From contig NZ_CAUI01000005.1 in the NCBI RefSeq assembly GCF_000350165.1, forward strand, positions 558,001 to 622,000: a stretch of DNA of 64,000 bases, given 5' to 3'. Below are positions 23,270 to 33,914 of this stretch, in pieces. The position numbers and the translations under genes are program-made. A model generated the notes under the pieces. It ran no database searches. It worked only from the letters and a program-made list of their open reading frames with translations, and was not told the origin of the DNA. The DNA is from Halanaerobium saccharolyticum subsp. saccharolyticum DSM 6643. Lineage in GTDB: Bacteria > Bacillota > Halanaerobiia > Halanaerobiales > Halanaerobiaceae. Positions within the stretch are counted from its first letter, which is position 1. Every line of letters starts with the position of its first letter.

Positions 23270-23299
23270 AATAACGATAGCTGAATAATTAAAAACTAA

Positions 23300-23562
23300 G
23301 ATGAGAAGTAGTAATTTTCCTGCAGCTGAAAGAGAACGGAGTCCAGCGGCTGAAAGATTCCGGCAGTTAAAGAAAATGAAGTCGTCTCTGAGTTTTACTG
23401 GTGAACTAAAATATTGAATTTCTTAATTTTATTTTGTTTAAGTAATCAGTAACGGCAAAGCAGTCGTTAAAAAATGAGAGCTTCTTGGATTAACAAGGAG
23501 AACTAAGGTGGTACCGCGAATTTAATGCTCTTTCGTCCTTAACTGGATGGAGGAGCTTTTTT
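23300..23562 (+). ncRNA. T-box riboswitch for valS
   Basis: This leader fills most of the 453-base gap between the M16 pair and valS. It starts with a Stem I region (GAGAAGTAGTAA), includes a candidate specifier GTC (Val) at 23381-23383 after AATGAA, and carries the conserved T-box AAGGTGGTACCGCG (about 23505-23518). Its TGGT can pair with the ACCA end of uncharged tRNA-Val. An intrinsic terminator follows (23527-23562), with GCTCTTTCGTCC pairing GGATGGAGGAGC, then TTTTTT. Uncharged tRNA-Val should favour the antiterminator and turn valS on. Confidence 0.93.
23527..23562 (+). terminator. T-box attenuator terminator
   Basis: A 12-bp stem (three G-U pairs) with the loop TTAACT and a T6 tail; mutually exclusive with the T-box antiterminator. 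Confidence 0.88.
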
Positions 23563-23633
23563 ATTTTTAAAAAATAATACTAACTCAAAATCTGTTATAA
23601 AATGAAGAGTTGGTGACAACGGAGGGAATTAAT

Positions 23634-27946: not shown

Positions 27947-29200
27947 ATGAGAGAGTTCTTAGAATTAAATCCACCCGAAAAATTCTGGCAGCAGCTAAAA
28001 CATTTTTTAAAAAACAAAAATTTAAGAACCGAAAATATAAAGCTGGATAATGCTTTAGATAGAATTCTAGCAGAAGATATTTTTTCTCCGGTTAATCTAC
28101 CGCCATTTAGCCGTTCAACTGTCGATGGCTATGCAGTTAGAGCTGCTGATACGGCTGGTGCATCAGCTTCTATGCCCACTTATTTAGATCTAATTGGAAG
28201 CGTAGAGATAGGTAAAAATACTGAACTTAAATTAAAAGCTGGTCAGGCAGCAGCTATTCCGACTGGAGGAATGATTCCAAAAGAGGCAGATGCTGTGTTA
28301 ATGATTGAGGATACAGAAAAGATTGAAGAAAATATTATTGAAAGTTTTAAATCACTGGCTGCTGGAGAAAACATTGTTAAAAAAGCAGAAGATATTGCTC
28401 AAGGAGAATTACTTTTTAAAAAGGGCCATAAAATAATGGCCAGAGATATCGGTGCCTTAGCTGGTTTAGGGATTACAGAATTTAAAGTATTTAACAAAGC
28501 AAAAATTTCAGTTATTTCAACCGGTGATGAACTAATTTCAGCAGAAGCAGAAGCAAAAGCTGGTCAGATTAGAGATATTAATAGTTATTCTATAACTTCC
28601 TATTTAAATAAAATCGGAGGAGATGCAAAAAAAGTAGGGATAATTAAAGATGAATTTAATAGTTTAAAAGAGGCTTTACAAAAGGAGCTTGATCAAGATT
28701 TAGTTTTAATTTCAGGTGGAAGCTCAGTTGGAATTAAAGATATGACAATTGAGCTGCTTAATTCTTTGGGAGAACCTGGAGTATTATTACATGGGCTGAC
28801 AATCAAACCAGGCAAACCAACAATTTTAGCAGTAATCGAAAGAACAATAGTTCTTGGTTTACCGGGCCATCCAGCCTCAGCCTGGACTGTAAATAATATT
28901 TTAGCTGCAGAAATAGTAAGAGTTTTAAATGGAGCAAAAGAAGCAGCTGAAATTGGCAGTGAAAATCAAAAATATTTAATTAAAGCAAAATTAACCAGAA
29001 ATTTAGTTTCAGATAAGGGAAGAGAAGAATATATACCTGTTAAAATAGTCAAAAAAAATGACAAACTATTTGCAGAACCATTACTTGCTAAATCAAGTTT
29101 AATTACCAATTTGGCTTATGGTGATGCAATGCTTAAAATACCCAGAAATCAAGAGGGTAAAGACAAAGGAGAAATTGTAGAATTAACTTTAATCGAGTGA
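27947..29200 (+). CDS. moeA: Molybdopterin molybdotransferase MoeA
   Basis: A 417-residue MoeA, inserting molybdate (or tungstate) into adenylylated molybdopterin. N-terminal PPFSRSTVDGYAVRAADT carries the Thr/Ser-Val-Asp-Gly-Tyr-Ala active segment, followed by AAAIPTGGMIPKEADAVLMIEDTE, the MoCF domain ISTGDELI...LISGGSSVGIKD and GLPGHPASAW. All domains I-IV are present at normal length. It is the first gene of a moeA-moeA2-moaA-moaC-mogA series. The second MoeA-like gene follows 33 bases later. Confidence 0.95.
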   Translation: MREFLELNPPEKFWQQLKHFLKNKNLRTENIKLDNALDRILAEDIFSPVNLPPFSRSTVDGYAVRAADTAGASASMPTYLDLIGSVEIGKNTELKLKAGQAAAIPTGGMIPKEADAVLMIEDTEKIEENIIESFKSLAAGENIVKKAEDIAQGELLFKKGHKIMARDIGALAGLGITEFKVFNKAKISVISTGDELISAEAEAKAGQIRDINSYSITSYLNKIGGDAKKVGIIKDEFNSLKEALQKELDQDLVLISGGSSVGIKDMTIELLNSLGEPGVLLHGLTIKPGKPTILAVIERTIVLGLPGHPASAWTVNNILAAEIVRVLNGAKEAAEIGSENQKYLIKAKLTRNLVSDKGREEYIPVKIVKKNDKLFAEPLLAKSSLITNLAYGDAMLKIPRNQEGKDKGEIVELTLIE

Positions 29201-29233
29201 ATTTAAATATATATAACAGAAAGGAAATAGACT

Positions 29234-31147
29234 ATGGTCAAAAAATATTTAAATAAGATTTCACTAACTGATGCACTTAAAAAATTAAAAGATCGTTTCA
29301 AAGATTTTAGAACTGAAAGTGAAAAAATAAAAACTGTAGATGCCGAGGGTAGAGTTACAGTTAATGCTGTAATGGCCAAACGCTCAGCTCCAGACTTTTA
29401 TGCAGCAGCTATGGATGGAATTGCAGTAGAAGCTCAAAAAACTGCAGGCGCCAGTGAGAGGGCACCAATTCAGCTTGAAATTGGTAGTGAAGCACAAGCT
29501 GTTGATACAGGTGATCCAATCCCTGAGCAGTTTAATGCAGTTATAAAGATTGAAGAGGTAAATCAGACTGATGAAAATCATTATACTATAGAAAAAGCTG
29601 TACCTCCCTGGAATCATATTCGTTCGATTGGTGAAAGTACAGTTAAAGGTAATCTGTTAGTTACAGCCTCCCATAAGCTCAGTGATTATGATCTGGCAGC
29701 TCTTTTAGAGGCAGGAGTAACAGAAATAGAAGTTTATCAAAAACCATTAATAACAATAATTCCAACTGGGGATGAGCTAGTTAATGCATCAGAAAACCCT
29801 AAAATAGGAGAATTGGTAGAATTTAATTCACAGATGGTAAAAGCGGCTTTAAAAAAATGGGGAGCAGAAATTAGGGTAACAGAGATTATAGCAGATCAAA
29901 AAGAATTAATTGAAAAAGCTGTTGTTGAATCAGTTAAAGCAAGTGATATGGTAATTGTTTTATCTGGATCTTCAGCTGGCAGGGGCGATTATACAATTGA
30001 TATTTTGAAAAAACAGGGTAAAATATTATTTCATGGTGTAAATATCATGCCCGGGAAACCATTAATAGCAGCTGAAGTAAAGGGGATTCCGGTTTTTGGT
30101 TTACCTGGTTATCCATTATCAGCCTGGCTTGATAACCATTTATTTATTAGAGAATTAGTTTATTTAATGCAGGCTGAATCAGCACCTAATTTTAAGCAAA
30201 TTGAAGCTGAAGTCAAAAGAAAAGTTTCTTCAGAGATTGGTTTAGAAGAATTTTTAAGAGTTAATTTGATTAATCAGGCTGAAAATAAATTTACGGCAGT
30301 ACCTTTAAAAAGAGGTTCTTCAGCAATGGAGTCAATACTAAAAGCGGATGGAATAATGAGAATATCAGAAAACAAAGAGGGACTTCACCCTGGAGATAGG
30401 GCACCTGTTATTCTTTTGAAGGAAAAAAATAGAATTAAAAATGATCTGCTTTTAATTGGCAGTCATGATTTAAGTTTAGATTTAATTAGAAATGAAATTC
30501 GTAAAAGAAATTATAATTTTGATTTAAAATTGCAGACAGTTGGATCAATGGCAGGGCTTACAGCTTTAAGGCGAGGGGAATCTCATTTAGCAGGAGCACA
30601 TCTGCTAGATCCAGAAAATGGCGAATATAATGTTTCCTATTTGAGAAAATTTTTTAAAGGCCAGAAATTACTAGTAGTTAATTTAGTTTATAGAGAACAG
30701 GGTCTATATCTTAAAAAAGGTAATCCAAAAAATATAGCAAATATTGATGATCTAACTCAAAATAATATCAATTATATCAACAGACAGCGGGGAGCAGGTA
30801 CTAGAGTTCTATTTGATTTTTTACTTAGTCAAAATGAGATTGAAACTAATCAAATTTCAGGTTATGAAAAAGAAGAATACACTCATATTGCGGCAGCAGC
30901 AGCTGTTGGTAGAGGCTCTGCAGATGCAGCTTTAGGTATCAGAGCAGCAGCTGAAGTAATGGATGTTGATTTTCTGCCGCTAGCAGAAGAAAAATATGAT
31001 TTAATAATTAAAGCAGAAAATATAGATGATCCAAGAATAAATAAATTAATTAAACTGATCAGTGAAAATAAAATTAAATCTAAAATAGAAAATTTAGGCG
31101 GCTATAATTGTCAAGAAACAGGAAATATTAAAAAACTGCAATTATAA
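29234..31147 (+). CDS. MoeA fused to a periplasmic-binding-protein-like domain
   Basis: A 637-residue protein. Residues 1 to about 400 are a complete MoeA: AMDGIAVEAQKT, DTGDPIPEQFNAVIKIEEV, IPTGDELVN, VLSGSSAGRGDYTI and GLPGYPLSAWLDN. Residues from about 410 are a substrate-binding-like domain (LLLIGSHDLSLDLIRNEI, NYINRQRGAGTRVLFDFLL, YTHIAAAAAVGRGSADAALGIRAAAE), the PBP-like type seen in some archaeal and clostridial MoeA fusions and in ModE-linked proteins. It has no signal peptide, so the domain probably senses or delivers oxyanion inside the cell. Two MoeA proteins may divide Mo and W insertion; this is inference. Confidence 0.9.
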   Translation: MVKKYLNKISLTDALKKLKDRFKDFRTESEKIKTVDAEGRVTVNAVMAKRSAPDFYAAAMDGIAVEAQKTAGASERAPIQLEIGSEAQAVDTGDPIPEQFNAVIKIEEVNQTDENHYTIEKAVPPWNHIRSIGESTVKGNLLVTASHKLSDYDLAALLEAGVTEIEVYQKPLITIIPTGDELVNASENPKIGELVEFNSQMVKAALKKWGAEIRVTEIIADQKELIEKAVVESVKASDMVIVLSGSSAGRGDYTIDILKKQGKILFHGVNIMPGKPLIAAEVKGIPVFGLPGYPLSAWLDNHLFIRELVYLMQAESAPNFKQIEAEVKRKVSSEIGLEEFLRVNLINQAENKFTAVPLKRGSSAMESILKADGIMRISENKEGLHPGDRAPVILLKEKNRIKNDLLLIGSHDLSLDLIRNEIRKRNYNFDLKLQTVGSMAGLTALRRGESHLAGAHLLDPENGEYNVSYLRKFFKGQKLLVVNLVYREQGLYLKKGNPKNIANIDDLTQNNINYINRQRGAGTRVLFDFLLSQNEIETNQISGYEKEEYTHIAAAAAVGRGSADAALGIRAAAEVMDVDFLPLAEEKYDLIIKAENIDDPRINKLIKLISENKIKSKIENLGGYNCQETGNIKKLQL

Positions 31148-31161
31148 TTGGAGGCAATAAA

Positions 31162-32121
31162 ATGCAGAAATTAATTGATCAATTTGGAAGAAAAATAGAT
31201 TATTTAAGAATTTCAATAACTGATCGCTGTAACCTTCGCTGCCGCTACTGTATGCCTGCAGAAGGAGTAAAAAACAAAAAACATTCCGAAATCTTAACTT
31301 ATGAAGAAATAATCAAAATTGTAAAAACAGGGATTAAAATGGGTATCAAAAAAGTTAGACTGACAGGTGGTGAACCTTTAGTCAGGGAAAATGTCGAATT
31401 TCTTGTTTCAAAACTCAGCAGTTTGGGCTTAGAAGATCTTTCAATGACCTCTAATGCAGTATTGCTTAGTTCAAAAGCAGAGTCCTTAAAAAAGGCAGGC
31501 CTGGATCGTATAAATATCAGTCTTGATACTCTAGATAGGGAAAAATTCAAAAAAATAACAAGGCGCGATTTTCTGCCAAAAGTTTTAGCAGGTATAGAAG
31601 CTGCAGCAGCAGCTGAACTAAAACCTGTTAAAATAAATATGGTCGTTATGAAGGGAATTAATGATGATGAGTTATTAGATTTTGTAGACTTAAGTATAAA
31701 AAAAGAACTTCAACTTAGATTTATCGAATATATGCCGCTTGGAGGAGAGGCAGAAGCTGCAAAATTTATCAGCAGCAGAGAGATTAAAGCCTTAATAGCA
31801 GAAAAATATAAACTTTATCCAGCCTTTACTAAAGGAAATGGTCCTGCTGAATACTTTAAAATTAAAGGAGCAGCTGGTACTATTGGTTTTATTTCAGCTT
31901 TAAGTGAACATTTTTGCAGCAGCTGTAACCGACTGCGTTTAACTGCCGATGCTAAATTTAAACCCTGTCTGGCGGGGGAACAGGAAATAAAAATTAAGGG
32001 GATGAGCAGCAGTAAAATAGAATCAGCATATTTAAAAGCAATTGAGCTAAAACCTGCCTGTCATCAGCTTGATTTTAAAAAACAAAATTATCTGAGAAAC
32101 ATGTCGCAGATTGGAGGCTAA
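31162..32121 (+). CDS. moaA: GTP 3',8-cyclase MoaA
   Basis: A 319-residue radical-SAM enzyme that begins molybdopterin synthesis by converting GTP to 3',8-cyclo-GTP. The N-terminal cluster motif CNLRCRYC (about residues 23-30, ITDRCNLRCRYCMPAEG) and the C-terminal cluster Cys set (CSSCNRLRL...KPCLAG) are intact. LTGGEPLVR and the RFIEYMPLG segment are conserved. The usual final Gly-Gly is replaced by the ending QIGG, which keeps it. A GGAGGC ribosome site precedes it. moaC, the next enzyme, starts two bases after its stop. Confidence 0.96.
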   Translation: MQKLIDQFGRKIDYLRISITDRCNLRCRYCMPAEGVKNKKHSEILTYEEIIKIVKTGIKMGIKKVRLTGGEPLVRENVEFLVSKLSSLGLEDLSMTSNAVLLSSKAESLKKAGLDRINISLDTLDREKFKKITRRDFLPKVLAGIEAAAAAELKPVKINMVVMKGINDDELLDFVDLSIKKELQLRFIEYMPLGGEAEAAKFISSREIKALIAEKYKLYPAFTKGNGPAEYFKIKGAAGTIGFISALSEHFCSSCNRLRLTADAKFKPCLAGEQEIKIKGMSSSKIESAYLKAIELKPACHQLDFKKQNYLRNMSQIGG

Positions 32122-32123
32122 AA

Positions 32124-32603
32124 ATGGGAAAAGAATTTTCTCATGTAGATCAAAATGGTAAAGTACAGATGGTAGATGTTTCAAAAAAAGAAATAACTAA
32201 GCGGACTGCAAGAGCTGTGGGAGAAATAAAAATGCAGCCTGAAACTTTAAAATTAATAAAAGCAGGAAATATAAAAAAAGGGGCTGTGATTGAAACTGCA
32301 AGAATTGCAGGGATAACTGGTGCCAAAAAAACTTCGAATTTAATTCCAATGTGTCATCCGCTGCTTCTAAGCAGCATAAAAGTTGAATTTGACCTTGAAT
32401 ATCAAGATAAAATTAAAATAAAATCGGAAGTAAAAAATAGTGGTCAGACTGGTGTTGAAATGGAAGCATTGACAGCTGTGAATTTAGCTGCTCTCACAAT
32501 TTATGATATGGTCAAAGCAGTTGATAAATCAATGGAGATTGGCAGTATTAAATTAATCTATAAAGCCGGTGGAAAGAGTGGGATTTATGAACGAAAAGAA
32601 TAA
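32124..32603 (+). CDS. moaC: Cyclic pyranopterin monophosphate synthase MoaC
   Basis: A 159-residue enzyme taking the MoaA product to cyclic pyranopterin monophosphate. Motifs are FSHVDQNGKVQMVDVSKKEIT, TSNLIPMCHPLLLS with the conserved catalytic His, GVEMEALTAVNLAALTIYDMVKAVDKSM, and KAGGKSG (GGKSG end). Length is standard. It is tightly packed: moaA ends two bases before it and the mogA-type gene starts 17 bases before its stop, so translation is likely coupled. Confidence 0.97.
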   Translation: MGKEFSHVDQNGKVQMVDVSKKEITKRTARAVGEIKMQPETLKLIKAGNIKKGAVIETARIAGITGAKKTSNLIPMCHPLLLSSIKVEFDLEYQDKIKIKSEVKNSGQTGVEMEALTAVNLAALTIYDMVKAVDKSMEIGSIKLIYKAGGKSGIYERKE

Positions 32604-33165
32604 TAATTTTAAAATAAGGACAGCTGTTTTAACTATTAGTGATAAGGGAGCTCGAGGAGCAAGAAAAGATTTAAGTGGTCCTCTAATTAAAGAAATGATA
32701 GAAAATATAGGTTCTAGTGTTGTTTATGAGGATATTATTGCTGATGAAAAGTCAGAAATAAAAAAAGCTTTAATTAAAATCTCTGATCAAAATATTGCAG
32801 ATTTAATTTTAACAACTGGTGGCACTGGCTTTGCAGCACGCGATATTACACCTGAGGCTACCTTAGAAATTATAGAGAAAGAGGTGCCTGGAATTCCAGA
32901 AAAAATCAGAGCTGAAACAATGGCTATTACCCCAAAAGCTGCTTTATCAAGAGCTAGGGCTGGGATTAGAAAAAAAACTCTAATCATCAACTTTCCCGGC
33001 AGCCCAAAAGCTGTTGGTGAATGTCTGGAGTCAGTAATTGATATTATTCCCCATGGAGTAAAAATTCTAAAAGGGGAAATTACTGAACATCAGCCTAATC
33101 ATAATCATAGTCACAATCACAATCATAATCATAATCATAATCATAGTCACAATCATAATCATTAA
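32587..33165 (+). CDS. mogA: MogA/MoaB-type molybdopterin adenylyltransferase with His-rich tail
   Basis: A 192-residue protein. Residues 1-165 are a MoCF domain: VLTISDKGARGARKDLSGPLI, LILTTGGTGFAARDITPEAT and NFPGSPKAVGECL, expected to adenylylate molybdopterin. The last 22 residues are eleven two-residue units of Asn-His or Ser-His, giving 11 histidines in alternation, a likely metal-binding or storage tail. The ATG at 32587 is preferred because MoCF homology begins soon after it; a GTG 18 bases upstream lies deep in moaC. Adenylyltransferase and MoaB-like labels cannot be separated by eye. Confidence 0.9.
   Translation: MNEKNNNFKIRTAVLTISDKGARGARKDLSGPLIKEMIENIGSSVVYEDIIADEKSEIKKALIKISDQNIADLILTTGGTGFAARDITPEATLEIIEKEVPGIPEKIRAETMAITPKAALSRARAGIRKKTLIINFPGSPKAVGECLESVIDIIPHGVKILKGEITEHQPNHNHSHNHNHNHNHNHSHNHNH
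33097..33162 (+). repeat. Hexanucleotide coding repeat (AATCAT-type, 11 units)
   Basis: Eleven six-base units, mostly AATCAT with AGTCAC and AATCAC variants, encode the His-rich tail. Being in multiples of six, slippage would change tail length without breaking the frame. Confidence 0.9.
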
Positions 33166-33170
33166 TAAAA

Positions 33171-33198
33171 AACTAATTTTCACTAAAATTAGTTCTTT
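33171..33198 (+). terminator. Hairpin after the mo cluster
   Basis: AACTAATTTT pairs with AAAATTAGTT around CACT, followed by CTTTAT; a moderate terminator. Confidence 0.65.
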
Positions 33199-33308
33199 AT
33201 AATTTGATTTTTATCAACAGATGACTTAATATTTAATTGTAAATGATTTAAATTTTAATAGCTTACATAAAATTATGTAACGAATTTTTGTTATAAGGAG
33301 GAATAATA

Positions 33309-33914
33309 ATGGAAATGATAGGAGTCAGTGCGTCTTCGGGCAAGGCTGGCAAGACAACTTTAATTTCCTTAATGTTAAAAGACAGCTGTTCTAAAACTGC
33401 GGTGATTAAAACATCAGTTAACAATGATCTTGATCAATATAAGGTGATTAATGATCCTAGAATTATAAATAAAGCAGGAACTGACACAGCAAGAGTGGTA
33501 GATCATGGTGCAGATAAAGTAATGCTTTTAGAAAGCCCGGCAGCCGAACTACCAACTGCTTATCAGTTAGCCCGAAATCTTTTAGATGATGACATAGAAA
33601 GATTATTTATAGAAGGTAATACAATAATAAACTTTTTAAATCCTGACCTTATTTTCTATTTAAACAATAAAGATGAAGCCGAAAAAGATTCAGCTAAGAT
33701 GGTTAAAAACAGAGCTAATATCAAAATAAATACCAACACTTTACTTTCAGCTGGTAAACTTGGTGACATACCATTTACTATTCAATCAGATAAGCTGACC
33801 TGTTATCAGGCACATTTAATAGCAGAACTGCTCAAAATATCAGTTCCTCAATTTGGCAAAGTTGTAAAAGAACAAGATGTAAAGATCACAAAATGTCAGT
33901 TGGGACTATTTTAG
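33309..33914 (+). CDS. P-loop protein, MobB-like
   Basis: A 201-residue P-loop NTPase. The Walker A is SSGKAGKTTL (residues 9-18), and the N-terminal strand plus KTAVIKTS resemble MobB, the GTP-binding helper of molybdopterin guanine dinucleotide synthesis. Later parts (VMLLESPAAELPTAYQLARNLL, RLFIEGNTIINFLNPDLIFYLNN) fit a small G-protein-like sheet, and it ends in KCQLGLF. The usual MobB His segment is not clear, so function is uncertain. AAGGAGG precedes the ATG. It follows the Mo cofactor cluster but has its own terminators on both sides. Confidence 0.68.
   Translation: MEMIGVSASSGKAGKTTLISLMLKDSCSKTAVIKTSVNNDLDQYKVINDPRIINKAGTDTARVVDHGADKVMLLESPAAELPTAYQLARNLLDDDIERLFIEGNTIINFLNPDLIFYLNNKDEAEKDSAKMVKNRANIKINTNTLLSAGKLGDIPFTIQSDKLTCYQAHLIAELLKISVPQFGKVVKEQDVKITKCQLGLF

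Follow-up and report, generated by a model that had tools for sequence, protein, structure and literature searches.

Histidine-rich ends are known on proteins that assemble metal centres. The His-rich C-terminal tails of SlyD bind metal, including several Ni; according to the sections of the source used here, such a tail matters in SlyD and is dispensable in UreE (PMC7055735), so that there is precedent for either outcome. MogA, a molybdopterin adenylyltransferase, readies the pterin moiety of the Mo/W cofactor in bacteria. In E. coli MogA, Asp49 and Asp82 have been named as catalytic, and the catalytic centres of G domains are suggested to form at inter-subunit contacts (PMC9458074, in the passages cited here). 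The excerpted text on P. furiosus MoaB gives the GGTG motif as the active site and describes contacts between the β3-α4 loop and C-terminal residues of the neighbouring subunit's last helix (PMC3896444). A His-rich tail on MogA itself appears to be unreported in the open literature searched, at the level of titles and abstracts.

Here we describe a mogA-type gene from Halanaerobium saccharolyticum subsp. saccharolyticum DSM 6643, analysed within a stretch of 64,000 nucleotides (contig NZ_CAUI01000005.1, positions 558,001 to 622,000), which we call the window. Its product resembles E. coli MogA, gephyrin G and Cnx1G in its PF00994 domain, GGTG motif, two Asp residues and pathway operon, and differs from them in a His-rich C-terminal tail that extends beyond the TEH end. 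We tentatively read this tail as a disordered metal-binding extension that borders the molybdopterin site and owes its length to duplication of the repeat, a reading that we prefer without giving it quite an even chance.

Results

An ordinary enzyme among its pathway genes

The genes moeA, moeA/PBP, moaA, moaC and mogA follow one another on one strand, in an order kept in the genus. The features of the region (window coordinates) are:

27947..32603, + strand: moeA, a moeA/PBP fusion, moaA and moaC, upstream genes of the common pathway (domain and model scans)
32569, in frame: GTG, a possible second start for the mogA-type gene
32590..33165, + strand: mogA-type gene, encoding 191 aa when read from ATG 32590, overlapping the end of moaC
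32818..32829, + strand: codons of the GGTG motif (residues 77-80), which does not vary among 70 aligned MogA sequences
33171..33194, + strand: A+T-rich inverted repeat directly 3′ of mogA, with 10-base arms and a 4-base loop (sequence reading)
33309..33914, + strand: 201-aa protein encoded after mogA, matching MobB weakly (TIGR00176, 22.9 bits, cut-off 76.2)

The inverted repeat is a possible transcript end. In the Pfam scan the mogA product matched only the MoCF_biosynth domain (PF00994; E 8.7e-31, 107 bits, cut-off 26.6), and no SlyD (FKBP) or UreE core domain was found. Among NCBIfam models, TIGR00177 scored above its cut-off, the best model, MogA PRK09417, reached 147.1 bits, below its cut-off of 158, and TIGR02667 (MoaB of the proteobacterial type) reached 92.8 bits against a cut-off of 222.4. 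Because PRK09417 stays below its cut-off, we file the protein, on the basis of domain, motif and operon, as MogA-type and not as a certified equivalog. The MogA/MoaB-type identity proposed in the earlier note on this DNA is borne out by the PF00994 and TIGR00177 matches and by the place of the gene in the run from moeA to mogA.

The closest solved-sequence matches are gephyrin G, MoaB/MogA and Cnx1G; the gephyrin match also covers a few residues of an apparent purification tag. Residues D52 and D85 are invariant across the 70 aligned rows and are equated with E. coli Asp49 and Asp82 by the 33-residue spacing, not by direct alignment. The enzyme itself, so far as these matches describe it, is ordinary.

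A repeat-encoded tail of eleven histidines

The end of the gene contains:

33088..33090, + strand: codon of the near-terminal residue His167; 169 of the 177 MogA rows aligned carry Cys or His there
33097..33162, + strand: eleven in-frame hexamers coding for (N/S)H eleven times (sequence, TRF), followed by a TAA stop at 33163-33165

The earlier note described an eleven-His alternating tail encoded by AATCAT-type hexamers, and eleven in-frame units are indeed present. It placed them at 33090-33165; the array and stop codon lie inside that interval, but the array begins at 33097, base 33090 being the last of the His167 codon, after which come Gln and Pro codons. The hexamers are AATCAT (eight), AATCAC (one) and AGTCAC (two), so that the final 22 residues of the protein comprise nine NH and two SH pairs. 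The partner residue varies between Asn and Ser and the His codon varies silently; His is kept in all eleven units.

Several comparisons set the array apart within the window. It has the top TRF scores among 55 window rows (99 at period 6 and 111 at period 18). Its (CAY NNN)n run of 66 bases is not a product of chance, since the longest such run on the + strand of 200 first-order Markov windows was 24 bases. The last 25 residues of MogA hold 12 His, against at most three in the others of the 59 ATG-started window ORFs of at least 100 aa.

Within the array, a 36-base shift aligns 29 of 30 bases identically. Such an internal duplication makes plausible the suggestion of the earlier note that tail length can change in two-residue steps and without frameshift. 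This near-perfect duplication would also suit neutral slippage, in which the end of the protein after residue 167 is unconstrained and a harmless A+T-rich AATCAT unit expanded in replication; so would the disorder predicted for residues 167-191 (pLDDT below 50 in the ColabFold monomer). The retention of His in every unit fits that explanation poorly.

His-bearing tails in relatives

For comparison we used the nine other mogA-bearing Halanaerobium genomes, one genome per species. At least one His follows the shared TEH end in seven of them: one each in G011, G013, G015 and G017, two each in G016 and G020, and five in G010, whose tail, RHSNDNSHQHDHNH, is encoded by non-repeat DNA. AATCAT units number two in G020 and one in G011. 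No His follows the site in the other two (G012 and G019), nor in G021, G022 or families f3, f4 and f7. Families f2 and f6 have His-bearing tails as well, in part without repeat DNA; MogA of G032, from another family, ends in DHHNHNHQ, which is not repeat-encoded, and that of G001, from a third family, in NHKDE. Two genus genomes, G014 and G018, are without MogA of this type. The related locus L001, from H. saccharolyticum, is 84% identical.

More widely, 32 of the 38 order genomes searched matched the MogA core with an E-value of 0.001 or lower, a few through MoeA-like matches only. No tail with more than two His was found among the 78 readable ends of 80 phylum regions surveyed. A phylum search with the tailed query markedly improved the match of one genome, G227, where MogA ends in LHEPSHRHEP.

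According to the earlier note, absence of the tail from all relatives, together with a lack of metal binding, would have pointed to a local repeat expansion. His residues past the end are present in seven of the nine genus genomes, mostly one or two in number, and in G032 and G001. Judged from these sequences, the eleven-unit length is a local expansion and the His-bearing tail itself is not local. We therefore set less store by a pure local repeat artefact, since some relatives have tails that are His-rich without repeat DNA. Neutral slippage is favoured by the species differences in AATCAT count, by the variable length of the tail and by the two genus members without His after 167; the His bias of the non-repeat tails of G010 and G032 counts against it.

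The His bias singles out MogA

We compared the C-terminal 15 residues of 175 ORFs (ATG start, 150 residues or more) from 16 genus and order loci, with MogA included and the window left out; the six ends richest in His all belong to MogA. This confinement of the bias is a further difficulty for neutral slippage, which explains the differences in length well and the singling-out of His and of MogA less well. We regard neutral growth as a possible origin of the tail, nearly as likely as the metal-binding extension.

Six-fold alternating His-codon runs occur in the window genome (G000) in mogA and at one other place only (C5:718681). This place and the pattern match in G020 were rejected as His repeats, since they lie opposite Asp-rich ORFs and so code for no His in an evident gene. 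The ORFs concerned (L091, G000 C5:717500-720500; L092, in G020) have long Asp-rich C-terminal stretches whose reverse strand mimics His repeats.

The other coding His-rich stretches seen in the genus are in the LarC nickel insertion protein (L271, PF01969) and in a 78-aa open frame (L272, G017 C30:17000-21000) that ends in HGDHDHQHQHNHEHHHGNHKH and matched no Pfam family. Alternating His stretches were also seen in a LarC-like protein (L093, in G001) and a ZnuA-like protein (L046, in G040, of the same class), both named by eye. LarC resembles MogA in having an alternating His stretch, in assembling an organic metal cofactor and in being found in the same genus; it differs in that the stretch is internal and in its fold and cofactor.

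The stretches in LarC (L271) and, by eye, in the LarC-like and ZnuA-like proteins, like the several Ni bound by SlyD tails, would agree with a general metal store, in which the tail buffers cellular Ni, Zn or Cu in the manner of SlyD and MogA is simply its carrier. Such a store does not account for the rooting of the tail in a Cys/His position that tail-less MogA proteins share (see below), and we consider it unlikely.

The tail is rooted in a Cys/His position

We aligned 177 MogA rows, namely 29 from the order, 138 from the best-scoring places of the phylum survey and 10 picked for their better score with the tailed query; four short rows were left out. In this alignment the tail starts out from a single near-terminal position, 167, which is Cys in 139 rows, His in 30, Tyr in three, a gap in two, and Gln, Glu and Ser in one each. 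The 138 phylum-survey rows have Cys in 136, His in one (L249) and Ser in one (L256); the 29 Halanaerobiales rows have His in 22, Cys in one (L038) and neither in six diverged rows (L040-L045). Where Cys is present, Ala or Gly follows in all 139 rows, and the preceding residue is Glu, Asp or Asn. Six loci from other lineages (L002-L007), compared by eye, have Cys at or near the position in five cases and His in one.

His at 167 goes with further His after it: these make up 20 of the 100 following residues in His-type rows (window left out) versus 16 of 602 in Cys-type rows (Fisher p 2e-9, with kinship ignored and the ten chosen rows included). A quick tree, built with the columns of this site left out and with L201 set to His by eye, calls for at least six Cys/His changes at the position; starred branches force three for the His group. 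In one fully supported set, L193 (His) is grouped with L208 and L235 (Cys).

The interchange of Cys and His suggests that position 167 is a metal- or thiol-type ligand. The gephyrin G domain, a working relative, has neither Cys nor His at the corresponding place in the alignment, so the residue is dispensable for catalysis in general.

The same interchange bears on whether the tail might instead dock MogA to a partner, MoeA for instance, or bind an oxyanion substrate in place of a cation. Protonated His could bind anions, and mogA adjoins two moeA-type genes. An exchange of Cys and His is more in keeping with cation or thiol chemistry, this analysis found no sign of the molybdate-related chaperoning raised by the earlier note, and the cited part of PMC9458074 reports no evidence that molybdate binds to MogA or Cnx1G. 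We hold docking or oxyanion binding to be the least probable of the readings weighed here.

The root of the tail may lie near a neighbouring active site

A monomer model of the window MogA (ColabFold, 70 rows) has a mean pLDDT of 84.5 and a confident core. In it the GGTG motif (residues 77-80) lies between a strand (72-76) and a helix (87-94), and it appears to lie in what corresponds to the β3-α4 loop of P. furiosus MoaB. If the structural elements do correspond, the tail would begin beside the active site of the neighbouring subunit. We infer this nearness from the published text on another MoaB in combination with the monomer model.

Tungsten-type enzymes and the MOSC gene

The window genome encodes one AFOR-family protein. 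Beside its gene are a radical SAM protein nearest to a tungsten-oxidoreductase maturase model (309.3 bits, below the cut-off of 380) and MoaD-type and ThiF/MoeB-type proteins. FwdD/FwdB/FwdA-like formylmethanofuran dehydrogenase proteins are also encoded (G000 C5, locus L264 4449-7775), with TIGR03129 (508.2 bits) and TIGR03121 (710 bits) above cut-off and the FwdD model below its own; the FwdB-like protein is the sole PF00384 match of the genome (49.3 bits). Weak PF00384 matches in frames of similar length (427-439 aa) were noted in G010, G011, G013, G020 and G022. From the AFOR protein, the maturase-like radical SAM protein and the Fwd-like set, we judge that the cofactor more probably contains tungsten than molybdenum.

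The two genus genomes without MogA of this type are also without AFOR-family or PF00384 matches. A tie between MogA and tungsten-type enzymes proved loose across the order: G025, G027, G033 and G034 have AFOR and G030 has PF00384 without a MogA-core match of this type, some of the genomes being incomplete.

A MOSC-domain gene (PF03473; L001 6540-6980) lies 3′ of mogA in eight of 12 genus genomes. No MOSC match was found anywhere in the window genome, where the gap after mogA spans 33166-33308, or in G020 (75% complete), G014 or G018. We rejected the idea that the His tail compensates for a lost MOSC protein: since G010 has MOSC as well as a His-rich tail, the two are not simply traded for each other. 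In L193 and L199 the frame ahead of mogA ends MOSC-like (GKECHxRC...), and the frames that hold phylum MogA matches are in many cases 300-385 aa long; by eye, MOSC-MogA fusions possibly exist in the phylum.

No Mo/W-cofactor riboswitch was found in the window at Rfam gathering scores. The only match was a T-box leader (RF00230, 112.7 bits, 23289-23543) upstream of an 892-aa ORF at 23610 that resembles, by eye, valyl-tRNA synthetase.

Discussion

In the reading that we prefer, position 167 would act as a ligand that, in the trimer, comes close to the GGTG loop of the neighbouring subunit, where molybdopterin binds. Most sampled Halanaerobiales have His at this position and extra His after it, and in the window genome duplication of an AATCAT unit brought the tail up to eleven His. 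The tail would probably retain or intercept ions of Cu, Zn, Ni or a similar metal beside the molybdopterin dithiolate, and would keep wrong metals off the dithiolate or occupy it until the insertion of tungstate or molybdate by MoeA. We infer metal binding by the tail, and its benefit, from the sequence comparisons.

In a bolder version, the near-terminal [ED]-[CH] residue of bacterial MogA would be a so far unrecognised ligand of metal or dithiolate and would reach the molybdopterin site of the neighbouring subunit, as the counterpart of the copper of plant Cnx1G, with the Halanaerobium tail as an extended loading or guarding arm; we think this version quite improbable. Kuper and colleagues are said to have found, in 2004, copper on the molybdopterin bound to Cnx1G. 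A colour for copper is listed in figure legends of PMC9458074, among the parts cited here. The tails of SlyD and UreE, as described in the cited portion of PMC7055735, resemble that of MogA in being variable, disordered, His-rich ends on proteins of metal-centre assembly. Their folds and their pathway, nickel maturation, differ from those of MogA, and metal binding by the MogA tail is putative.

The shorter His-bearing tails that arise from the same spot in relatives hint that the MogA end may handle metal. The window tail is an extreme and easily deleted version of them, and its repeat could change length by two-residue steps. The two-state Cys/His end of MogA is a more interesting by-product than the tail. 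Ends of the Cys type and of the His type represent natural variation at a single position. If the MogA end binds metal, it would provide a sequence handle on what, if anything, occupies or protects the molybdopterin dithiolate after its synthesis and before Mo or W is inserted.
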